From Sulfuracidifex tepidarius (GTDB lineage: Archaea > Thermoproteota > Thermoprotei_A > Sulfolobales > Sulfolobaceae): a stretch of 64,000 nucleotides of DNA. Under the pieces are notes generated by a model, which was not told the DNA's origin, ran no database searches, and saw nothing but the letters and a program-made list of their open reading frames with translations. This document shows, one piece after another, positions 7,641-18,550 of this stretch. Positions within the stretch are counted from its first letter, which is position 1. Every line of letters starts with the position of its first letter. The position numbers and the translations under genes were made by a program. The stretch is from assembly GCF_008326425.1 (NCBI RefSeq), contig NZ_AP018929.1:1-64000 (forward strand), in the 5' to 3' direction.

Positions 7641-7916
7641 TCAATTCATATCTACATACTCTAACCAAAAATCTATTTCTTCTGTGACGTCTCTCTCCTC
7701 TTTACCGTCAGTTAGTTTACAGGAATATAGGATAGCCTTATCATCTTTGATCAAGAAAACAATGGTATAGATCTTGTTGGATTCTCCCTGCCCTCCTGCT
7801 TCTTCTATTGAAGGTGGCAGAAAATTGACAATTATCTTATCTCCTTCCTTTACCCATGAGTAGGAGGGATTTCCATTTAGAAACCTAATTAGCTTGTCTA
7901 GTCTTATTTCCTTCAA
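7641..7916 (-). CDS. Small conserved-looking hypothetical protein
   Basis: A 91-residue soluble protein with no membrane segment; its hydrophobic/charged pattern suggests a small beta-rich domain. I do not recognise the family. The start overlaps the end of the NfeD-like gene by 32 bp and the stop is 7 bp from the GGCT-like gene, so it is clearly part of that operon, which supports it being a real gene. Confidence 0.7.
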   Translation of the reverse strand: MKEIRLDKLIRFLNGNPSYSWVKEGDKIIVNFLPPSIEEAGGQGESNKIYTIVFLIKDDKAILYSCKLTDGKEERDVTEEIDFWLEYVDMN

Positions 7917-8268
7917 ATGTGTCAGCCCTTTTCACCACTAACTTCAACCCCCGTCTTTCTAGGACTACTACTGATTCTCCTTTATGAATGTTCTCATCAC
8001 TTATTGCTTCCCAGATTTCTCCTTCAACTCTCACGAAGCCCGTGTGACCAGGAGTTATATCTCTTTCCACTTCCCCGATCTTTCCTATATATGTGTAAAT
8101 ATCACGGTGTCTGGTCTTCAGGATCACGTAAACCATTCTGTAGCTCAGATAGCCTATTATAAATAAACTGGGCAGGGAAACTATAGGATCAAATATATAT
8201 CCAGTCAAGACTAGGACGATGACTAGAACAAGAATAATTATTACGGGAATTACAGCAGGGTGTGCCAT
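7885..8268 (-). CDS. NfeD-like membrane protein
   Basis: 127 residues: two closely spaced N-terminal membrane helices (about 5-45) followed by a soluble OB-fold-like domain with the NfeD C-terminal signature (IGKIGEVERDITPGHTGFV, VEGEIWEAISDE, KGESVVVLERRGLKLVVKR). NfeD proteins partner with stomatins in membrane microdomains; a stomatin is encoded 1.4 kb away on the other strand (9625). Here it is the short form without the ClpP-like protease domain. First gene of the operon. Its TATA-like box (tttatattta) lies next to the divergent gene's start. Confidence 0.85.
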   Translation of the reverse strand: MAHPAVIPVIIILVLVIVLVLTGYIFDPIVSLPSLFIIGYLSYRMVYVILKTRHRDIYTYIGKIGEVERDITPGHTGFVRVEGEIWEAISDENIHKGESVVVLERRGLKLVVKRADTFEGNKTRQAN

Positions 8269-8301
8269 AATTTTAATATAACGCGATCTTAAATATAAAC
8301 A
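8269..8301. promoter_or_regulatory. Compact bidirectional promoter
   Basis: Only 33 bp separate two divergent start codons. Plus-strand attttaatataa (about 8269-8280) is about 25-28 bp before the ATG at 8302; minus-strand tttatatttaag (about 8298-8287) is about 25 bp before the ATG at 8268. Each gene's TATA-like box sits directly beside the other's start, so both messages should be leaderless. Confidence 0.6.
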
Positions 8302-9606
8302 ATGCTCTCGAATAGAGCTATAGCATTATTTATTATAACTCTACTATTTATTCCTTTGTCGTCAGCCTTTATGGTCCACTCTCAAGTTGGTGCCAGCTTT
8401 CCTATGGGAATATCTACTTTTCCATTGACCGGCGTACACTACACGAATCAAGTTGAGGGTATCATAAACATTTCTTCTCTCAGCATTGGTCAGTCTTTCT
8501 TCTCTAATGGTCAACCATTTCAAACTGGGAATGCCTCGCTTCAGCTTAACTCTATGGTTGATGGACTTTTCTGGGCTCAAGATGTAGCCCTAATTTGTCA
8601 AGAAAGCCCGAACACTTTCGGGATAAGAATGGTAGTTAACTTTTGGAACTTAACAGGACCATTTACAATAAAGGTAAATAACGGTACCGTAACCTCCTTC
8701 CAAGGATTGGGTGTGATATGTTATTTAGGTCCTAATATAACTGTCAAAACTCCATTTGAGCTTGGTCTGTTCATGACTGAAAATAGCTCTGGAATAAGCT
8801 TTAGTTTTTCGTACAACGGACATAATAGAACTTACTATTTCGTTCCTGTTACTGGTTCATTTCAAATAGGAGGTTATTCGAAGTTAAATTTGCCAAACGA
8901 TCTTGAGTTTGTGTGGGGAGGACCGGGCGGGGGTAGTATCGTACCTCTTTCAATGAACTCAAGCGCGGCGATTCTTTATGAGCAAGGAGGGAAGATGGTG
9001 TTGCCAAGAGAAACTTACTCTATTGGTTTCGACACCGGAGAGTCGGCTGAAGGAGTGAGCGTAAACGCTGACCTATCAAGCGTCTTTTCACCTAAGGTAA
9101 ATGAGGTTTCCGGCACGGATGATCCTAAGGTGTTGTGGCCGGTTCCACCATCAATTTCAATATCCCAGAAGAACAGTACTGTAAACGTTTCTGTTTCCAT
9201 TGATGGTAAAGTAATTCCGAATCAAAAAGTCGAGATAGAAAGTGGCTTTCCACTTTCTCCCATAGCAGAATCTGTAACAGACAGTCATGGGATTGCTGTT
9301 TTTAGAAATATAAGTTCCTCATTGTTTGTGGTGTACTATCCAGGGAATTTTACGCTTTCATATAGCTATGCCTTGTCCTCGCCGGTTCTCAATAGCGTAT
9401 ACTCATCCCTCCAGTCTTATTATCACAAACTCTTGAATTTTCTGCAATCAGAGGAGTATTCCTTCAAGAAAGGTCTAACTTCCTTCTTTAATAACGGGAA
9501 GTATGTAAGCCCTCCAACTACGGTAAATTACCTTCTTTTAGAATATATTGCAGCAATATCACTTGGTGTGATAATTTCAGCTCTTTTAGTAAAGCTTAAA
9601 ACTTAA
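8302..9606 (+). CDS. Thermopsin-family-like secreted protein
   Basis: 434 residues with an N-terminal signal peptide (about 1-27), many N-glycosylation sequons and a C-terminal membrane helix (about 408-430). The segment FPMGISTFPLTG and ASLQLNSMVDGLFWAQDVA, followed by LEFVWGGPGGGSIVPL, match the pattern of thermopsins (peptidase family A5), acid proteases of Sulfolobales. A beta-sandwich-like region (290-370) separates the catalytic-type part from the membrane anchor. Whether it is an active protease cannot be judged by eye. Likely acts on the outer face of the membrane at acidic pH. The stomatin follows 18 bp downstream. Confidence 0.8.
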   Translation: MLSNRAIALFIITLLFIPLSSAFMVHSQVGASFPMGISTFPLTGVHYTNQVEGIINISSLSIGQSFFSNGQPFQTGNASLQLNSMVDGLFWAQDVALICQESPNTFGIRMVVNFWNLTGPFTIKVNNGTVTSFQGLGVICYLGPNITVKTPFELGLFMTENSSGISFSFSYNGHNRTYYFVPVTGSFQIGGYSKLNLPNDLEFVWGGPGGGSIVPLSMNSSAAILYEQGGKMVLPRETYSIGFDTGESAEGVSVNADLSSVFSPKVNEVSGTDDPKVLWPVPPSISISQKNSTVNVSVSIDGKVIPNQKVEIESGFPLSPIAESVTDSHGIAVFRNISSSLFVVYYPGNFTLSYSYALSSPVLNSVYSSLQSYYHKLLNFLQSEEYSFKKGLTSFFNNGKYVSPPTTVNYLLLEYIAAISLGVIISALLVKLKT

Positions 9607-9624
9607 TAAAAAAATATATACGTT

Positions 9625-10458
9625 ATGGCAAGTGGATTACCGGCTACAGATATAATAGGATTGGTTTTCCTGTTAATTGTAATACTAGTATTCGTAGGCC
9701 TGTCATTCAGAGTAGTCAAAGAATGGGAGAAAGCTGTTGTATTGAGGTTAGGAAGGCTTCTTGGACTGAAAGGGCCAGGGATAATTTTCTTAATTCCATT
9801 TGTAGATAAACCAATTATAGTAGATTTACGCATAAATAGTGTAGATGTTCCCTCTCAGTCTATAATAACTAGAGATAACGTAAGCGTTGCGATAGACGCT
9901 GTAGTTTACTATAAGGTTGTAGATGCTCAAAAGGCTGTTACAACAGTGTTCAACTATAATGTCGCTGTTCTAAATTTAGCTCAAACGTCACTGAGAGATA
10001 TAGCAGGTCAGATGGAGCTAGATGAGATATTAACCAAGAGGGAGAGCATTAACCTGAAGTTACAGGAGATACTTGATACGATTACGGAAGGATGGGGAAT
10101 AAAGGTCACTCAAGTTACAATAAGGGATATAAGAATCTCACAGGATCTGCTTTCTGCCATTGCTAAGCAAGCAGAGGCGGAAAGGCTTAGACGTTCTAGA
10201 ATAATAATAAGTGAAGGAGAGAAACAAGCTTCAACAATACTTGCAGACGCTTCTAAGTCATATAGTTCTAATCCCGTTGCAATGCAATTAAGGTTCTTAG
10301 AAACTCTATCTGATGTCTCTCAGCGTGGATCCCTTATAGTGGTAGTTCCAGCTGGAAGCGAAATATATCCAACTCTAGGTACAGCGCTTTCGGCTTATGA
10401 ATTGAAAAAGGGAGGAAATGGACTAGCGGGACAAACTGATATGAATCAGAGGAAATAA
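9625..10458 (+). CDS. Stomatin/prohibitin (SPFH domain) protein
   Basis: 277 residues: one N-terminal membrane helix (about 9-28), then an SPFH domain starting VVKEWEKAVVLRLGR, with the conserved GPGIIFLIPFVDK and RDIAGQMELDEIL, and a coiled-coil tail (AKQAEAERLRRSRI). Forms oligomeric membrane platforms; its usual partner NfeD is encoded nearby in divergent orientation. The gene follows the thermopsin-like gene closely, suggesting co-transcription and perhaps quality control of a secreted or membrane protease. Confidence 0.92.
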   Translation: MASGLPATDIIGLVFLLIVILVFVGLSFRVVKEWEKAVVLRLGRLLGLKGPGIIFLIPFVDKPIIVDLRINSVDVPSQSIITRDNVSVAIDAVVYYKVVDAQKAVTTVFNYNVAVLNLAQTSLRDIAGQMELDEILTKRESINLKLQEILDTITEGWGIKVTQVTIRDIRISQDLLSAIAKQAEAERLRRSRIIISEGEKQASTILADASKSYSSNPVAMQLRFLETLSDVSQRGSLIVVVPAGSEIYPTLGTALSAYELKKGGNGLAGQTDMNQRK

Positions 10459-10489: not shown

Positions 10490-11572
10490 CTATTTAGAAA
10501 TTCGCTTAAGTAAAAACTCATCATCCAATAACTCTTTACTGATAATCATATTATATAGTGAGATAAGCCTTTCACTCTCGTTCCTGGAAACGTTAGATAG
10601 GTCGTCTGCAAGTTTATTTATTATAGTTATTTCCCTGAGCCCAGGCAGAGCCCATCTGTCCACAAAAGTTAAATCTTTTTCAGGATCCTCTCCCTTTTTT
10701 GAGAGGACATCAATCCTCCCTATAGGAGAAGCTAAATCTCTTTGGTAATAGAACGAGGTAATTTCCAGCTCGTCTTGGAAGTACCTCTTATAAGCACTGT
10801 ACGCCACTTCCAGTGAGTCTAACTCATTCACTCTCCTGTCCCTTAAGGAATCCTCCCATCTTATAGGTCCTAGATATAGTGAAGAATCATACATATTTTT
10901 GTACTTGCGATATTTTAAAAATAACATTGACACTATGAAATTTTCTGTTGCCTTAGAGATTTGTTTCAAACCTCTGTTCATGAGGTAATTTATTAAGAAC
11001 CTCTGTGAAAACCTCTTAGATATTCCAATTATTGCAGAGTTTCTCTTTTTTTGCATTAAAACGTCCGCTCTGAACTTTACATAATCTGAAAGGTCTGGAA
11101 AGTCGTCCACGTGAGGATCTTCGTAGTACGTAGGTGGATCTATAAGGGGCCCGTCTATCATTATCACGTCCGAGCCTTCGCATTTGTTCAGGAGCGTAGT
11201 CTCTAGATAAAGCATCAACAATATTGACTTATTCCCTATGACGTTTTCGTCATAGTAATTGCTTGCTATCTTGAACTCCTCCTCTATTTGTGGGGGTATG
11301 TCTTTCTCTCCTTCCTTGTCTTCGCCCCTGACAGCAACTGCCCTGGCTATCACGAAGACGCTATCTCGTAATGGAACTATGTATCTGCTACCGTCTATTG
11401 CGCACGCATTGTGGGGAGTAGATCTCTCCTTGACCTCCCTGAACTCAAGGTCTAAGTTACCGTCCCTGATGTCTTCAAATGCTATTTCAATGAGAGTGTT
11501 CACTTTTTCCCTCTCTTTCATGTTCCTTTCAGCTAAGTCCGTAATCCTTTTCACTAAGTCGTCGTTCTTCAT
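10490..11572 (-). CDS. NurA-like nuclease (paralogue outside the Mre11-Rad50 locus)
   Basis: 360 residues. The RNase-H-like NurA active site is visible: Asp60 (CAIDGSRY), Glu124 (LYLETTLL) and Asp140 (VIMIDGPLID), with the C-terminal FVDRWALPG also NurA-like. In the canonical system NurA is driven by the HerA hexamer to resect DNA ends. Here it closes an operon with a HerA-like ATPase, not with mre11/rad50, and overlaps the coiled-coil gene by 4 bp. Family assignment is good; its role as a second NurA system is inferred. Confidence 0.82.
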   Translation of the reverse strand: MKNDDLVKRITDLAERNMKEREKVNTLIEIAFEDIRDGNLDLEFREVKERSTPHNACAIDGSRYIVPLRDSVFVIARAVAVRGEDKEGEKDIPPQIEEEFKIASNYYDENVIGNKSILLMLYLETTLLNKCEGSDVIMIDGPLIDPPTYYEDPHVDDFPDLSDYVKFRADVLMQKKRNSAIIGISKRFSQRFLINYLMNRGLKQISKATENFIVSMLFLKYRKYKNMYDSSLYLGPIRWEDSLRDRRVNELDSLEVAYSAYKRYFQDELEITSFYYQRDLASPIGRIDVLSKKGEDPEKDLTFVDRWALPGLREITIINKLADDLSNVSRNESERLISLYNMIISKELLDDEFLLKRISK

Positions 11573-12276
11573 AACGACATCTCCACTTGAATCCCTTTCT
11601 CTATTAAGAGGCTAATTATCCTCATAATGTCATCATAATTGGATTTATTTACCTTTATCTTACCGTTTTCGATTAAGTCTATCATGATATTAAGACTTCT
11701 TTGATCCATGTTCCTTTCCTTTATTTTTTGTATCACGATCTCCTTCACTCTGTTGAGGTGAGCTTCAGCTTCCTTTAGCGTCGAATATAGCTCGGTAACA
11801 TAAGTTGATGAACTATAGAAAGTCCTTACCTCGACGTCTTCTTCTAGAAATTGGTTCAGTACTCTAGCGTAAACTTTAAGCGCCTTGTTGTTTTCTTCTA
11901 ATTTTTCCTTTAGGCTGTCTTTCGCTTTCCCCGTGGTCGCCTCGACATCTTTTACCAACTCTAACGCTTCACGATTTACGTAGGCTACCGTGTCCACTAT
12001 GTTGTCAGGATTATCTAGCCTTGAAATTTTCCTAAGCTCAGAAGTTAATCTCTCCAGTCTTTCAGATAACCTCTTGTCTTCGAAATCTATTTGTTGCAAA
12101 CTCCTGATCATCTCCCTTGCCTTGCTTAATGCTTTTAACGTGGAATCCAGTTTATCTGAAGTCTCGTGAAGCCTCCCTGCTATGCCCTTGAGTCTTTGGA
12201 GTTCCCCTTTCATATAATCAATGTTTAGTGTATCTTTGGTCTCCTTAAGTTTTATATAGAGTTCCTCAATTTTCAT
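11569..12276 (-). CDS. Coiled-coil protein of the HerA/NurA-like operon
   Basis: 235 residues, nearly all charged amphipathic helix with heptad patterning from about residue 5 to 200. No catalytic motif or membrane segment. It overlaps the big ATPase gene upstream by 11 bp and the NurA-like gene downstream by 4 bp, so stoichiometric co-expression is likely; it may bridge the ATPase and nuclease. Family not recognised. Confidence 0.8.
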   Translation of the reverse strand: MKIEELYIKLKETKDTLNIDYMKGELQRLKGIAGRLHETSDKLDSTLKALSKAREMIRSLQQIDFEDKRLSERLERLTSELRKISRLDNPDNIVDTVAYVNREALELVKDVEATTGKAKDSLKEKLEENNKALKVYARVLNQFLEEDVEVRTFYSSSTYVTELYSTLKEAEAHLNRVKEIVIQKIKERNMDQRSLNIMIDLIENGKIKVNKSNYDDIMRIISLLIEKGIQVEMSL

Positions 12277-15200
12277 ATTTACTCACCTTCATTTTTATTT
12301 CCTCCATGGTTTCTTCTATTTCCTGGGAGACCTTAGAAGTCTCTTTTCTGATCAAAGGCAACTCTGGCATCGCTTTATTTAAAGAATCAAAGAGTATTTC
12401 AATATCAGCTATTATCCTAGACGAGTCCTTCAGTTTATTAATATCGTTGAAAATCTCCATGTCCTTCAAGAAGTCGATTAGGGGTACTCTCATTCCGTTC
12501 AATGTGGATCTGAGCACCTTCATTACGAATAGCTTCAGGTGTACCGGTTGGTCCTGTGGCATCGAGATAGCTGATAACGTCTCGTCCATGGCCTCTTTGA
12601 ACTCCTCTCCTTTTCCTTCATTATATAAATTTCGTATTATTTTCTCTATTTCTCTTGAAATTTCGCCTATGTGATTAACCTTTGCTATAATAGTCTCTAT
12701 GAGCCTTTCCTCCTCCGTTGGTTCCTCTATCCCGAGGAATTTCCTCACTTTAACTATAACATCAATCTTGTTTAATATTTCAAGTTTAACTTGGTTTTCA
12801 GTCTGGTTGTTGCTCTCTTCTGCTAAGGACGATAGCTTATCGTAGATAGAAGAGAGTGCAACGTAAGCTGAACAGAACCTGAGGAAACTTAAATCCTCTT
12901 CGGCTTTCATGCACATGTCCTTGTAGCGTAACATTACGTTTCTCATCTCACTTAGGCTTCTAATTCCCGCGTCTCTCCTCTTCGCCGTTAAGAAGTAGTC
13001 GTCTATGTTATTTTGGCTGATCTCTGAAATTTTGTTTAAAATAGATTTAATTATCTCATCTTTCTCTAAATTTTTGAAAAGTTCTCCCGAAACTAATGAA
13101 ACATAAGTTAGGAAGTTCAGGCTCTGGTCTGCCTTGGTCTGAAATAGCCTTGCTACTGTGTTAACGAGCTTCTCGTCAGGCGTGCCTGAAGCCGAGGAAA
13201 TGAATGAATTGACTAACATGGGAACGTATTCGCCATATTTCTGCCTGATTAAACCGGCAACTATTGAGGAAATTCTTCGGGGTACTTCTCCGTTTAAGTC
13301 TCTGAAGTCCAAGAGTCCGTTCTTTTCTTTGATTACTCCGTTTGAGACCAGGTAAGGTACTATTTCCTCTTGAAGTAAGCTCTCGGTCTCGAAGTCCTCC
13401 AAATGAAATTGTTTCGATCCGAATATTCTAAACTTCTGGTTAACTATCGAGTCGGTTTTCTCGAAAACGTCCTTTACTTCAGCTACCTCATTCATGGGGT
13501 AGAAAATCAACCAATTGAAAGACTGGATGAGCCTCTGTTTCGTTGCTGGGAGCTGAGGAAAGATAAGTGTGTCATAAGCTTTATTAACAGTGTTCTCTAT
13601 CTCTCTCTTTAATTCGCCCAGCTTTATTTCAATGGAGTCGTATCTTATGTTAGCACCTTCTCTGAGCTTGTTAGCAAATAGCAAGTAGAGAAGCTGTCTT
13701 CTAGTAGGGACTGGGATGTCCAGAAGCGTTGATGATATTGATAATTTATCCATAGAGCCCAAGAGTTTTCCAATCATGTCCTGATTATCAGTTACGAAAT
13801 CGTTCTTTATCACTATCACGGAATGAACTACGTCGTTTTGGGAACGTTCGAGAATGGACTCGTCTACCTCAGAAGTAGGGTAAAGAAGAAGAACATTAAT
13901 TCTCTTTTCATTTATAGAGATCTGTAATGAAGCTAGCTGTGAGGACATTACGTTAACTTTGTCAACCTTCCATTCTGTTTTTGCAACTTTGATGAAGTTC
14001 ACTAAAGATTCCATCAACTTCTTGTTGTCAGTTATGTTCTCGTTGACGAATCTCAAAGCCATTTCCTTCTCTTCTCTAGATTTGAAGTCTACTATGAGCC
14101 CACCAACGTTTGCGTTAACTATCCTCTCATAAAAGTCCCACCTAAGGGCATAGAACTCTCCTGAAGCTAAGGGCAAAGTCCTTTCTTTAAGTTTCTTCAG
14201 GGTGTCGGTATCAGCCGAGATCCCTTCATATACCACCTTCTCTAATTCTTCGCTTACGAATATGTACAGCGAATCCTCTACACTTCTCGATCTACTTATG
14301 GTTAGGAGGAAATCCTCCAAGTTTGAAGCCAAAGGTAGATCGGAAGTAGCTTGCAACCACTTACTGTAGGGTATCAAACTTCCCTTAACTACTACCTTCT
14401 TTAACGGTTCAATGATTTCATCTTCAGTGAGACCTATTCTCTTCATCAGTGTAGAGTATATTCTCTTTCTCTCACTAACTTCTACTTCATCTTCAAGCTT
14501 CAAGAGCTCCTTCTCCTTTACTGTCTCCTCTTCGTCGTTCAGCACGTTTTTCGACGTTCCCCTAGCTATCTCTTGGAATGTTTCCTCAACTGAAGGGAAG
14601 TTACTAAGTATAACGTCGTTTATAAGTCTGGTATATTTCCTCCTCTCTGGTTGCGTAACCCAGAACGGTAGATCCATGAACTCTAGATATTTTAAAATAT
14701 CCGGATCACCGAATCCGTTCTGTTTAAGGGAACAGTTTATCATGAGCAGGAACTCAAGTTTCGATGGAAGGCTCAAGGATACTTTCTTAATTCTTTCAAG
14801 GAATGCAGGAAAAGTCTCTTGGAACAAGTATTGGATTTGCCCTCCAACACTGAATATCTTACTGAATGCACTTGGAGTCATAGATAGATAAATGATTGAA
14901 TTTCCTTGACTATTAGCTAATGTTTTTAGATTAATCCAGAAATCGCTTATCTCCTCTCTGTGCCTAGAGAAAACTATGGGGTCTACTAAGTTCTCTACTT
15001 CGTCTATCAGGACGACTCCTTCCTTTGGCGGTACCCATTGGTCGAGAATGTCAGAGAAATTTACCTTTTTTATGTCTATATGATACTCTTTTCCATATTC
15101 CTGTATTATATCGAGAAAGAAAGATTTCCCCTGTCCCCAATCTGCCACGAGAGCAATAATTTCAGGCGACTCTCTGTCGCTCTTTATTCTCTTTAACTCA

Positions 15201-15316
15201 TGTTCTACCTCGCTAAAGAATTTCAACCTATTAACGTATCTGATGTTGGAAACGCATCTAAATAGAGAAAACGCAGATTGGCTATCAGCCGCAGTCTCAC
15301 TGAGTCTCTTTGCCAT
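12266..15316 (-). CDS. Large P-loop ATPase (1016 aa) of the HerA/NurA-like operon
   Basis: The N-terminal ATPase core has a Walker A variant ADWGQGKS (58-65, Ala in place of the first Gly) and Walker B VVLIDEVE (100-107), followed by a sensor-1-like IIYLSMTPSAF segment. The remaining ~800 residues are helix-rich, without a second recognisable enzyme domain. Size and layout recall large ORC/STAND-like or defence-island ATPases, but I cannot place the family. It follows the HerA-like gene by 6 bp and overlaps the coiled-coil gene by 11 bp. Confidence 0.8.
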   Translation of the reverse strand: MAKRLSETAADSQSAFSLFRCVSNIRYVNRLKFFSEVEHELKRIKSDRESPEIIALVADWGQGKSFFLDIIQEYGKEYHIDIKKVNFSDILDQWVPPKEGVVLIDEVENLVDPIVFSRHREEISDFWINLKTLANSQGNSIIYLSMTPSAFSKIFSVGGQIQYLFQETFPAFLERIKKVSLSLPSKLEFLLMINCSLKQNGFGDPDILKYLEFMDLPFWVTQPERRKYTRLINDVILSNFPSVEETFQEIARGTSKNVLNDEEETVKEKELLKLEDEVEVSERKRIYSTLMKRIGLTEDEIIEPLKKVVVKGSLIPYSKWLQATSDLPLASNLEDFLLTISRSRSVEDSLYIFVSEELEKVVYEGISADTDTLKKLKERTLPLASGEFYALRWDFYERIVNANVGGLIVDFKSREEKEMALRFVNENITDNKKLMESLVNFIKVAKTEWKVDKVNVMSSQLASLQISINEKRINVLLLYPTSEVDESILERSQNDVVHSVIVIKNDFVTDNQDMIGKLLGSMDKLSISSTLLDIPVPTRRQLLYLLFANKLREGANIRYDSIEIKLGELKREIENTVNKAYDTLIFPQLPATKQRLIQSFNWLIFYPMNEVAEVKDVFEKTDSIVNQKFRIFGSKQFHLEDFETESLLQEEIVPYLVSNGVIKEKNGLLDFRDLNGEVPRRISSIVAGLIRQKYGEYVPMLVNSFISSASGTPDEKLVNTVARLFQTKADQSLNFLTYVSLVSGELFKNLEKDEIIKSILNKISEISQNNIDDYFLTAKRRDAGIRSLSEMRNVMLRYKDMCMKAEEDLSFLRFCSAYVALSSIYDKLSSLAEESNNQTENQVKLEILNKIDVIVKVRKFLGIEEPTEEERLIETIIAKVNHIGEISREIEKIIRNLYNEGKGEEFKEAMDETLSAISMPQDQPVHLKLFVMKVLRSTLNGMRVPLIDFLKDMEIFNDINKLKDSSRIIADIEILFDSLNKAMPELPLIRKETSKVSQEIEETMEEIKMKVSKYEN

Positions 15317-15322
15317 AGTATT

Positions 15323-16930
15323 TTAATCTGCAGACAATACTCTTTCAACTCTTTCCACGCTACCTGCGTATGATCCCAACCTAGCATCCCAAGGTATTTT
15401 CACCAACACTGGACTACGCATGGCAGACATCAACCCGTTGACTATCACGTATCCTGTGTCGAGCGATGTCAAAGCGTGTGACAAAGACTCTGGTAGACCT
15501 CCTGAGGCAGACATTACATACCTGACGTCCTCGTGATAGATCCTGTGGAAGAAGAATGTGTTCAACATGGAAAGGACGTACTTATCTATGAATGCAGGTC
15601 TCTGGCTGACAAGGAAGAGGGAGAGACCGAACTTCCTCCCTTGAGTGGCTAAGGTGACTAGGATGTCCTTAGTTAAGTTTGCATTTACGGGATAATCGTT
15701 AGAGGGAATATAGTTTTGGGCTTCCTCGATTATGAACGCTAAGAAACGTTGCGAGCCGTTATATTTAGTTCTTGTAAGGTAGTTATAAGTGATTCTAGAT
15801 ATGTAACTCACTATTAGCTGTTTTGTGGTTATGTCTATCCCTGGTGAGGCGTCGGCGGAAAAGTCAACTGTAGCTAATCCACGAGACCTCCACATGACTT
15901 CGAGCGTGTTTTCAGTCAAGGATGCGTTGGAGCTCACCAAAGCTAACTTATTTACTACCTTATTTCTGAATATCTCCAGTGCGCTTTGTATGCTTCTAGA
16001 GGTACTGTAATTGAAACCCAGCTCCTTGTTGGAGGCAGCTTCATTTATCTCCTGTTTAAGGTTATCCAGACCGGTGGGAGTACCTAGGAGGAAGTTGAAG
16101 TCCTTTTGGTCATGGAGGGAAAGTATGTACTCTAAGAAATTAGATTGAAGGGCGTTCCCTCCAGATTGGCCATACTTAAGGGAGGTTATGAATTCTGCAA
16201 GATCTCTAGGAGAAAACAGGGAGAGATCTATAGTTAGCCTCTGGTCGTTCGGGAAAACTGGATCTCTGAGGACGTATCTCTTTATCCATCTCCTTCCGGT
16301 TAACATGTTTGAATTTGTATATGTAAAGTCAGCATAATCTCCGTTAGCGTCGATTAGCATAACTGGAATAGCTTCATCTTTTTCTCCTATTCGAATGCTA
16401 GATAAGTTGTAGAGAAGGTATCTCATGTTGTAGCTCTTTCCGCTACCGGTCTCTCCGAAAATTCCTACGTGCATGGTGATCGAGTTCAGGTCCAATAGAA
16501 GCGGTATATTTGAGCCAGCTAGTCTACCGTATTTTATATATCCATTGAAGTCAGGTAGTCCATAGAAATCGGGTAAATCACTGTCGTTTATTTCGGGTAA
16601 GGTTTTAATTAATGAACCCGGCTTTGGCGTAGACGAATGCCCATATCTCCTTATGATCGAAAGATCGGCTCTAGTTACTGTCCCTGAACTTAGTAAGCTA
16701 TAGATCTCCGATGACCCGCTTAAAGGTCTTATAAGCTCGGAGTCCTCCGCGAAGAAGTTATTTATATACTCAAAGGACTCTATTCTTCCTAGTGATATTT
16801 TTTCATGATCTTGAACTACTAAAAGTTGTCCCATACTGACGTCTAGGTTCTGAGCTAAAATCGCTCTGACGGCGTTGTTCTGTCCTTTCTGTAATACTAT
16901 CCCAACAGGTTCGTTCTTGTCCAGATCCAT
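15323..16930 (-). CDS. HerA-like hexameric DNA-translocating ATPase
   Basis: 535 residues: an N-terminal beta-barrel of the HAS type (about 5-90), then the DUF87/FtsK-HerA ATPase core with Walker A GETGSGKS (159-166), Walker B FLAFIIEEAQNYI in the C-terminal third, and the sensor-like LVSQRP. HerA proteins pump duplex DNA and activate NurA nuclease. This copy heads an operon with a large ATPase, a coiled-coil protein and a NurA-like protein, unlike the canonical herA-mre11-rad50-nurA arrangement. It is 164 bp downstream of the TGT/ArcS-like pair on the same strand and may have its own promoter there. Confidence 0.88.
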   Translation of the reverse strand: MDLDKNEPVGIVLQKGQNNAVRAILAQNLDVSMGQLLVVQDHEKISLGRIESFEYINNFFAEDSELIRPLSGSSEIYSLLSSGTVTRADLSIIRRYGHSSTPKPGSLIKTLPEINDSDLPDFYGLPDFNGYIKYGRLAGSNIPLLLDLNSITMHVGIFGETGSGKSYNMRYLLYNLSSIRIGEKDEAIPVMLIDANGDYADFTYTNSNMLTGRRWIKRYVLRDPVFPNDQRLTIDLSLFSPRDLAEFITSLKYGQSGGNALQSNFLEYILSLHDQKDFNFLLGTPTGLDNLKQEINEAASNKELGFNYSTSRSIQSALEIFRNKVVNKLALVSSNASLTENTLEVMWRSRGLATVDFSADASPGIDITTKQLIVSYISRITYNYLTRTKYNGSQRFLAFIIEEAQNYIPSNDYPVNANLTKDILVTLATQGRKFGLSLFLVSQRPAFIDKYVLSMLNTFFFHRIYHEDVRYVMSASGGLPESLSHALTSLDTGYVIVNGLMSAMRSPVLVKIPWDARLGSYAGSVERVERVLSAD

Positions 16931-17094
16931 GAAGACAACTCTATAGAGGGAGCTTTTAACTTCATGATCTAAGTTAGACTTCCTCTAACAATTAATTTAA
17001 AACAAATATAAAGTATACAAGCCTTTTCTAAAGTGGTCCCTTCATGCGACTCGTTAAGATATAGCAAGAAAATGCAGCAGAGGCTGTGCTCATA

Positions 17095-17700
17095 TCATGT
17101 GTTGTTTATCGCATTTATTTCTTTGCCTTTTGTTTCTAAATTTTCTATAGATTCACTGATAGACCTAAATGCCAATTTCCCATATCTCATGAGGTATAAC
17201 TTTAAGCCTTCCTTCCTCGAGGCTCTGTCGACTATGGAATAGTGATGAGTAGGAAGAACCCCAACTATAACTTTGTGTTGTTTGGCAATTTTTGCTAGAG
17301 GCTTTCTGAGCAGTTCAACGAACTCATCTTTTTCCTGCACTGTCATGACCTTTGGAGAATACTCATAGGAACTAAAAGGATAGCATTCCTCGACTTCTCT
17401 GGGAACTAACAGCATCGGTTCAGATACCGAATAAACCTGAACGTGGTTATCTAGATTTTTCCTCTTTAAAATAGAATAAACTAGTCTATGTGTAGCTGAT
17501 CTACTATAAGGTTTAACAGACGTACAAGGTAACAGCAAAGCCAACGGTTTAGTAGACTCATATGATTGAAAGAAAAACTCGTGCCATTTCTTAACTGTTG
17601 GATTAATGAAGAGGTCTTCCCCTTCTCTCTTTATAATAGGTTGAAAAGAGTTAATCTTAAGCTGATAATAAAGAGTTTGACAGTTTATCACATTGCTCAC
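17095..17700 (-). CDS. Stand-alone ArcS-core (DUF5591-like) protein
   Basis: 201 residues. It holds the archaeosine-synthase signature PC-X3-KPY-X2-S-X2-H as PCTSVKPYSRSATH (58-71), followed by VPREVEECYPFSSYEYSP, also typical of the ArcS core. In full-length ArcS this domain adds lysine to preQ0 in tRNA; here it lacks the TGT-like and PUA domains. Short ArcS-core proteins are known to me from DNA-modifying haloviruses. The GTG start overlaps the TGT-like gene by 44 bp, so the two probably act together on one 7-deazaguanine substrate, tRNA or DNA. Confidence 0.75.
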   Translation of the reverse strand: MSNVINCQTLYYQLKINSFQPIIKREGEDLFINPTVKKWHEFFFQSYESTKPLALLLPCTSVKPYSRSATHRLVYSILKRKNLDNHVQVYSVSEPMLLVPREVEECYPFSSYEYSPKVMTVQEKDEFVELLRKPLAKIAKQHKVIVGVLPTHHYSIVDRASRKEGLKLYLMRYGKLAFRSISESIENLETKGKEINAINNT

Positions 17701-18550
17701 CTATTTCGTCTTCCATCTCAGAAAGGTTCATCTCTGGCTCTACCTCTTGCCTTTTAGAGCTATAAGACGATTTAATAAGAACCCACGCGTTTATCAGGCT
17801 CCTTTGTTTCCAATGTGATAAGTCTACTCTGAAAGGAAAGCTTGTCTTTTCAAGGAATGAAAGTAACGAGTCCAACTCCTCCTGAGAAGCTCTCTTGACC
17901 CTCCATACTATTTTCCTCTCTCCCACATATCGTTCACCTTTTCCAGGTATTATCACCATGCCATGAATGGCTTTTATTCTGTAAGTAGAAGTATCTACGC
18001 TGTTTGCGTCATAGAAAATTGTCCTCATATAAGGGGATCCAGCACCGAGAACGTGTATCCATGTAGAAGATAAATGCTTTCTAATTACCTTGTATATCTT
18101 CCTGACAAGGTCTCTACTTCCTCTCTGTCCCATCGTTGGAGGGACTATTCCCCCGTAAGCTATCTTCTTTACCCCGTAAGATTTGTAAAAGTCAATTGAT
18201 TCCATGAGACTCTCTCTGTTGTAGGCGTGGATCACAGGGACTATTTCCCTGTCCTCGAGTTTGTGATAGAGGAACTCGAAGTTCTGAAAGTTTTCCCGCG
18301 GAACAGGAGAACAAGGGGGAACGGGTCTGTCCAGACTCATGAAAACTTTTGCATTCAAATAAGTGTATTTCTTATAAACTGTCTCTAAATTTACATCCAT
18401 CCTTCTCATCATGATCTGGTAACCGCCAGAGTCCACCCACGTTTCGTTCTCCCAGGGGATCTTCTCCCACGTAAGTTGGTTTATCATTAGGGGAACTCCT
18501 AGTTCCCAGATAGGCAGCCTACCGTCAGGTATTCCTAAAACGATTTTCAT
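17657..18550 (-). CDS. tRNA-guanine transglycosylase-like protein (TgtA/DpdA-type), no PUA domain
   Basis: 297 residues forming a TGT-type TIM barrel. The general base is Asp40 in DSGGYQ, the base-binding Asp74 in MSLDRPVPP, then YGGIVPPT (132-139), HVLGAG (166-171), and the likely nucleophile Asp186 in SVDTSTYR. Both catalytic aspartates are present, unlike the TGT-like domain of ArcS. Archaeal tRNA TgtA is much longer (C1, C2 and PUA domains); those parts are absent here, which makes the protein resemble DpdA, the TGT paralogue that puts 7-deazaguanines into DNA. Substrate (tRNA or DNA) cannot be settled by eye. Confidence 0.78.
   Translation of the reverse strand: MKIVLGIPDGRLPIWELGVPLMINQLTWEKIPWENETWVDSGGYQIMMRRMDVNLETVYKKYTYLNAKVFMSLDRPVPPCSPVPRENFQNFEFLYHKLEDREIVPVIHAYNRESLMESIDFYKSYGVKKIAYGGIVPPTMGQRGSRDLVRKIYKVIRKHLSSTWIHVLGAGSPYMRTIFYDANSVDTSTYRIKAIHGMVIIPGKGERYVGERKIVWRVKRASQEELDSLLSFLEKTSFPFRVDLSHWKQRSLINAWVLIKSSYSSKRQEVEPEMNLSEMEDEIGEQCDKLSNSLLSA

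Follow-up and report, generated by a model that had tools for sequence, protein, structure and literature searches.

We analyzed a 64,000-nucleotide window of the genome of Sulfuracidifex tepidarius, an archaeon from hot acid springs (2.56 Mb; NZ_AP018929.1, positions 1-64,000; G000 in our sample), which carries a four-gene operon for a HerA-type DNA translocase (HerA2), a large AAA+ ATPase, a coiled-coil protein and a NurA-type nuclease (NurA2). Upstream of the operon, we found a pair of overlapping genes for a TGT-like base-exchange enzyme and an ArcS-like protein, and among 31 Sulfolobaceae genomes the TGT-like gene matched the operon in every case, being present in the 18 genomes with the operon and absent from the other 13. 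Together, the operon and the pair look like an unrecognized defence system that marks its own DNA and destroys the rest; we give an even chance to their being a restriction-modification-like (Dpd- or BRC-like) module in which NurA is the nuclease. The original prediction for this locus ended at position 16930, so the two upstream genes were missed. It had left the role open among repair, chromosome handling and defence, and the strict co-occurrence of the pair now suggests a role of the defence type, linked to modification. The genes are as follows.

10490..11572, minus strand: NurA-type nuclease NurA2, 360 amino acids (aa); PF09376, E=6.6e-14
11569..12276, minus strand: coiled-coil protein, 235 aa; all-helical in the AlphaFold2 (AF2) model, position kept in 18/18 loci
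12266..15316, minus strand: large AAA+ ATPase, 1016 aa; assigned from motifs, AF2 model and structure matches
15323..16930, minus strand: HerA-type hexameric DNA translocase HerA2, 535 aa; DUF87 PF01935, E=1.6e-30
16931..17094, minus strand: gap between the marking pair and the operon, read from the sequence
17095..17700, minus strand: ArcS-like protein (DUF5591), 201 aa; PF17884, 6.8e-18; no PUA domain
17657..18550, minus strand: TGT-like base-exchange enzyme, 297 aa; catalytic Asp residues D40 and D186 conserved, PUA domain absent

Conservation of the operon and its co-occurrence with the putative marking genes

The ATPase was detected in 18 of the 31 Sulfolobaceae genomes, all from genera g1, g3, g4, g5 and g9. 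Reading of the gene neighborhoods revealed HerA, ATPase, coiled coil and NurA, complete and in the same order and strand, at every one of the 18 loci; the coiled-coil gene of g9 (268 aa) was assigned through position and alignment, not through BLAST. Such constancy at 18 loci, down to an ATPase identity of 22-23%, shows that the operon is not a chance arrangement. HerA2 was the slowest-evolving protein (about 60% identity between genera and 44% to g9), the ATPase and NurA2 evolved faster (34-41% between genera, with lower values for g9); the coiled coil was the fastest (15-27%). The flanking genes for thermopsin, SPFH and NfeD were common to g1 and g5 only, with other flanks in g3, g4 and g9, indicating that the four genes are the unit. 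Thermopsin, SPFH, NfeD and GGCT were accordingly rejected as system parts, since they are not kept in g3, g4 and g9; the NfeD-thermopsin-SPFH trio (window 7885-10458) adjoins the operon in g1 and g5, and no functional relation was seen. The 412- and 422-aa neighbors in g5 and g4, taken at one point for NurA proteins, proved to be a dehydrogenase and a glycosyltransferase.

The TGT-like gene follows this distribution exactly, as stated above. G004 (presumably S. tokodaii) is among the genomes with the system, and G016 (presumably S. acidocaldarius) is among those without it. DUF5591 was present in every operon-positive genome inspected and absent from the two operon-negative Sulfolobaceae tested. 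The marking genes adjoin the operon in g1, in most of g5 and in the distant genome G160, and lie away from it in g3, g4, g9 and G006; thus, the co-occurrence is not plain linkage. The operon-positive genomes did not form one clade on the rpoB tree (approximately unbiased test, p=2.9e-6). This tree forces at least three gains or losses of the operon, and the TGT-like gene follows each of them. Moreover, g4 grouped with g3 in the trees of the operon proteins and with G006 in the tree of the TGT-like protein, indicating that the operon and the TGT-like gene have partly separate histories and are nevertheless always found together.

A defence of the HerA-capture type would need no such partner: it could recognize its target independently of the pair (for example, by DNA ends), with the pair being a separate epigenetic system that co-occurs by chance. 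HerA paired with a SIR2 or DUF4297 nuclease needs no DNA mark for defence (PMC12977600), and nurA-csm6-herA clusters lie near CRISPR arrays in Pyrobaculum (PMC3396285), both of which agree with this explanation. The strict co-occurrence of the operon with the TGT-like gene argues against it, and we regard it as very unlikely.

When 398 Thermoproteota genomes were searched with the ATPase profile, full-length matches were confined to Sulfolobaceae, and a contig scan with the single protein returned a near relative only. A diverged form, found through HerA2 and not through the ATPase profile, is encoded in G160, a member of another family (locus L108), where the gene order is TGT-like, PCNA-like, ArcS-like, HerA2, 1463-aa ATPase and NurA. 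The 1463-aa protein carries AEWGEGKS, FIFLDEFED and ITPPAYE, counterparts of three motifs of the window's ATPase, followed by a long coiled-coil C-terminus; it is therefore apparently a fusion of the ATPase and the coiled coil. Its homology to the ATPase is argued from motifs and position, because hhalign gave only E=0.012. The PCNA-like protein within this operon (L108 9054-9821) is diverged, and its presence hints at a possible tie between marking and replication.

The putative marking pair and its viral copies

The ArcS-like and TGT-like genes overlap by 44 bp. In a profile search of solved structures, the TGT-like protein matched only the archaeal enzyme ArcTGT (1iq8, 1.4e-5) and the DNA-guanine transglycosylase DpdA (7ui4, 0.007). 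With DpdA models, it gave 3.7e-5 (PADLOC) and 1.4e-4 (NCBIfam, 20.9 bits against a cut-off of 200). The two catalytic Asp residues of the TGT superfamily are in place, in DSG and VD(T/S) motifs that align with DSG and FDSASY of 1iq8. The ArcS-like protein matched the NCBIfam ArcS model (4.3e-19) over ArcS positions 271-435, the middle of that model, and its solved relative is 2q07 (2.7e-15). It has the motif PCTSVKPYSRSATH, which fits the pattern PCx3KPYx2Sx2H; this pattern is kept in all aligned Sulfolobaceae members, and we take it to be typical of ArcS.

Next, we considered whether the pair could act on tRNA or another RNA, the operon being an independent second repair nuclease and the co-occurrence inherited or accidental. 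Such a role would suit the TGT and ArcS families, which are chiefly tRNA enzymes, the presence of related TGT-like genes in genomes that lack the operon, and the fact that the distribution offers three independent contrasts only. However, neither protein has room for the tRNA-binding PUA domain, because the TGT-like protein has 297 aa compared to ~500 for TgtA and the DUF5591 protein has 201 aa compared to 515-575 for ArcS models. All 29 genomes with a PF01702 match, operon-positive and operon-negative alike, encode one full-length canonical TgtA (~500 aa), and tRNA archaeosine is therefore covered. The adjacency in g1, most of g5 and G160, and the identical distribution of genes with different trees, also speak against an RNA role, which we consider rather unlikely.

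Among virus records, 35 carry the TGT-like gene, and every one of them belongs to a Sulfolobales virus; the g5 query added a few weak phage matches. STSV1, STSV2 and STSV4 carry an overlapping TGT-ArcS pair, with a TGT 69.5-70.5% identical to that of G006. The 2005 description of STSV1 by Xiang et al. is said to report that the viral DNA is modified in an unusual way. Among the rudiviruses examined, the gene was present in S. islandicus, Stygiolobus and Beppu viruses, and it was absent from Acidianus ARV1-3, Metallosphaera MRV1, S. solfataricus SSRV1 and Mexican SMR1. The host species of MRV1 is, we assume, that of G281 (presumably M. sedula), and G281 is without the system, as expected for the TGT-less MRV1. 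No close TGT-like match was found on plasmids. We think that the viral TGT-like copies may serve as counter-defence. Ligamenvirales and Bicaudaviridae are named among the viruses with 7-deazaguanine-pathway genes by Hutinet et al. (PMC6884629). As here, their account concerns 7-deazaguanine-pathway genes, namely DpdA and ArcS genes, in archaeal viruses; we saw no link there to a host HerA-NurA operon.

The second HerA-NurA set and its ATPase

The four open reading frames (ORFs) lie as originally predicted, on the minus strand and either overlapping (by 4 and 11 bp) or, between the ATPase and HerA genes, 6 bp apart. An A/T-rich, TATA-like stretch (ctttatattt, at about 17012-17003) lies in the gap upstream and possibly provides the operon with a promoter of its own. 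The NurA and HerA Pfam matches both exceeded their cut-offs, and neither the window's ATPase nor its coiled coil matched a Pfam family over the curated cut-off. The predicted signature residues (GETGSGKS in HerA, ADWGQGKS and VVLIDEVE in the ATPase, Asp60/Glu124/Asp140 in NurA) are all present and conserved. HerA2 belongs to the HerA family by its DUF87 domain and Walker motifs (Walker A GETGSGKS, Walker B IEEAQN, together with SQRP); K165, E402, E403, Q443 and R444 were invariant in 13 homologues, and the closest solved relative was S. solfataricus HerA (4d2i). NurA2, a presumed nuclease, is likewise a NurA-family protein by its PF09376 domain and three acidic residues: D60, E124 and D140 were invariant in 13 homologues and recur in the canonical NurA of the same genome. 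In the alignment, NurA2-type proteins have Asp (D323) in the column of the canonical NurA His.

The genome was then checked for a canonical locus, which was found at ~2.42 Mb, with NurA (333 aa), an 882-aa ORF in the rad50 position, a 382-aa ORF in the mre11 position and HerA (493 aa). HerA2 and NurA2 were 24% and 23% identical to these canonical proteins. Since the nurA-rad50-mre11-herA locus exists elsewhere in the genome, the operon is a true second set, as the original prediction had proposed in calling it a separate HerA-NurA-type machine. Both sets have a HerA translocase and a NurA nuclease, whereas the operon has the AAA+ ATPase and the coiled coil where the canonical locus has Rad50 and Mre11; the genes in the mre11 and rad50 positions lie at 2.42 Mb with the other herA and nurA, and no Mre11-like gene is present in the operon. 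A HerA2 profile scored its own kind at about 350-980 bits and every other HerA at about 86 bits or less, indicating that HerA2 is a family of its own. The genome holds five NurA-family places in all: besides these two sets, there is a third HerA-NurA pair, with a HerA-like protein (569 aa) beside the NurA-family gene (1506953-1508927), and there are two further NurA-family genes over the Pfam cut-off (297368-298111 and 2456438-2457271) with no HerA-like match close by.

The ATPase appears to be an AAA+ protein like ORC/Cdc6 and the BrxC/D proteins of BREX. ADWGQGKS, LIDEVE and MTPSAF were invariant or nearly so across 14 homologues, and K64, D105 and E106 were invariant. The AF2 model (mean pLDDT, the predicted local confidence score, 82.5; built on an alignment of 14 rows) shows an N-terminal ORC/Cdc6/BrxC-like domain (about residues 1-250), followed by a long helical C-terminal part. 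The N-terminal 250 residues of the model matched the AAA+ proteins ORC, Cdc6, DnaA, TnsC and p97 (Foldseek 4e-4; VIA Z about 12 over about 210 residues at 3-4 Å). When solved structures were searched by sequence profile, the ATPase gave no meaningful match, nor was DUF6079 matched. PF10923 (BrxC/D) exceeded its cut-off in one of the 14 homologues (G010, 33 bits compared to 22.2, E=4.1e-8); for the ATPase of the window it remained below the cut-off (E=0.032), and the other homologues were just under it. The ATPase is thus not a well-described protein, and in this respect the original prediction holds. The coiled coil was all-helical in its AF2 model (mean pLDDT 89), without a significant structural match. 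An ATPase fragment of about 60 residues with 52% identity was also observed in G024 (C2:1956058-1956246; L022/L073) and is likely a remnant.

The same prediction had suggested that the ATPase and the coiled coil may stand in for Rad50, and we considered this reading in the form of a repair machine. The tight association of four genes including HerA and NurA, and a weak coiled-coil resemblance to Rad50/SMC, are consistent with it. However, the N-terminal domain is of the AAA+ (ORC/Cdc6, BrxC/D) fold with no ABC/SMC head, and the coiled coil is encoded by a separate gene rather than splitting an ABC head. Together with the rad50- and mre11-position genes at the canonical locus and the lack of an Mre11-like gene in the operon, this leaves the Rad50-substitute idea unsupported, and we rejected it on the fold; the reading as a whole is very unlikely.

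Proposed mechanism and relation to known systems

In the scheme that we propose, DNA would be the substrate, the base would be of the 7-deazaguanine type, and events would run in the following order. The TGT-like enzyme would excise guanine from DNA at selected sites and insert the 7-deazaguanine precursor preQ0, whose synthesis for tRNA the cell should already carry out. The ArcS-like protein would then alter this base towards one of the archaeosine type. The BrxC/ORC-like ATPase and the coiled coil may recognize unmarked DNA and license or load HerA2-NurA2, whereupon the HerA2 hexamer would pull duplex DNA through and feed it to the NurA2 nuclease; this last step is modeled on published work on the canonical pair (PMC12977600). 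The marked chromosome would be spared and unmarked invading DNA degraded, and viruses bearing the TGT-like gene, alone or together with its ArcS-like partner, could mark their own genomes and escape. The full account, in which several Sulfolobaceae genera bear a 7-deazaguanine-type self mark in the chromosome, the HerA2-AAA+-coiled coil-NurA2 machine destroys unmarked DNA, and rod- and spindle-shaped viruses living in those hot springs took the marking genes to pass as self, is offered tentatively, as plausible but short of an even chance.

Alternatively, the machine could serve the modification reaction or its upkeep instead of restriction, such that the ATPase opens or moves along DNA for the TGT-like enzyme, HerA2-NurA2 repairs or resects around modified bases or stalled forks, and no invader is destroyed. 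The genus-level fixation of the operon and the PCNA-like gene beside the TGT gene in G160 fit such a chromosomal role, as does the role described for HerA-NurA beside Mre11-Rad50 (PMC4351679). Nevertheless, viruses have captured the marking genes but not the machine, which fits better with an attack on unmarked DNA, and the ATPase resembles BREX-type ATPases. We consider this alternative unlikely.

Several observations weigh against a mark-based defence. The co-occurrence is not proof of joint function: with three independent contrasts only, the sign test gives p=0.25 and cannot reach 0.05. Related TGT-like genes are present in many Thermoproteota without the operon; one f3 genome (G026, presumably Ignisphaera-type) has both TGT-like and ArcS-like genes and lacks a HerA2-type HerA. 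Conversely, in G237 and in f8 genomes (which we take to be Pyrodictium-type) HerA2 is paired with NurA but the ATPase is missing; the f8 case is the one that we count here. The operon is fixed at the genus level, unlike the patchy distribution of most defence islands, and SSRV1 lacks the TGT-like gene though the genus of S. solfataricus appears to have the system. The TGT zinc site (CxCx2C...H) is lost in the Sulfolobaceae TGT-like proteins; the corresponding motif is CQCEIC in the G160 TGT-like protein and CNCEVC in S. tepidarius TgtA. Finally, a modified base in the DNA of this organism is only a prediction from the genes.

Compared with known systems, the closest published architecture is BREX-Related Capture (BRC), in which HerA, a BrxC-like ATPase and a TGT occur together (PMC12839542). 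The likeness to BRC lies in the HerA/FtsK translocase, which is present at our locus, in the TGT, found in a subset of BRC loci, and perhaps in the ATPase, which would correspond to the BrxC-like ORC/Cdc6 AAA+ ATPase. In contrast to BRC, our system has NurA as its nuclease, includes an ArcS-like partner and a coiled coil besides, and does not always keep the marking genes linked; its locus lacks PglZ, DUF4007, the STAND NTPase and GNAT. DUF4007 and the STAND NTPase had no Pfam match among the locus genes scanned, and no PglZ was found in the locus; the one weak PglZ match of the genome, a ~359-aa frame at 794 kb, is of a kind common to operon-positive and operon-negative genomes. With the Dpd 7-deazaguanine system, the possible likeness is a TGT-family enzyme that marks DNA and is tied to an ATPase-driven restriction machine. 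Here, however, PDB profiles place the TGT-like protein nearer to archaeal TgtA than to DpdA, an ArcS-like protein takes the place of DpdC, and HerA-NurA is the machine; a scan of the locus gave no matches to DpdB, DpdC or dpdD-K, and PADLOC reported no complete known system. The Pyrobaculum nurA-csm6-herA clusters (PMC3396285) likewise place a paralogous nurA-herA pair in a defence setting, whereas no Csm6 or CRISPR was seen here and marking genes are found instead. A 2026 study of T. kodakarensis HerA-NurA reported that it degrades double-stranded DNA and cannot make 3' overhangs for recombination, and proposed an antiviral role (PMC12977600).

If our proposal is right, restriction based on a DNA mark would operate in hyperthermophilic Crenarchaeota, and the means by which viruses counter it would be identified. 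Genetic work on Crenarchaeota relies mainly on Sulfolobus and Saccharolobus, yet our literature search found no DNA-mark-based system with a 7-deazaguanine base reported for either. The proposal would assign roles to an operon that is conserved but unnamed, to the genes annotated as 'queuine tRNA-ribosyltransferase' in SIRV and STSV and to the orphan ArcS-like protein; it would also link a HerA-NurA pair to defence and could be tested with existing strains, viruses and knock-outs.

Other associations of TGT-like genes were also observed. At 12 loci, mostly of f31 (L208-L211, L218, L220, L222, L226-L228, L231 and L232), a TGT-like gene lies beside a HerA-type ATPase; these were not counted as the same system because their HerA is closer to the canonical kind. 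In g9, a different NurA-domain protein (420-422 aa; PF09376 1e-17 and 2.2e-22) adjoins the TGT-like gene (L121 5926-7185 and L122 6274-7539), forming a second link between NurA and the marking pair.

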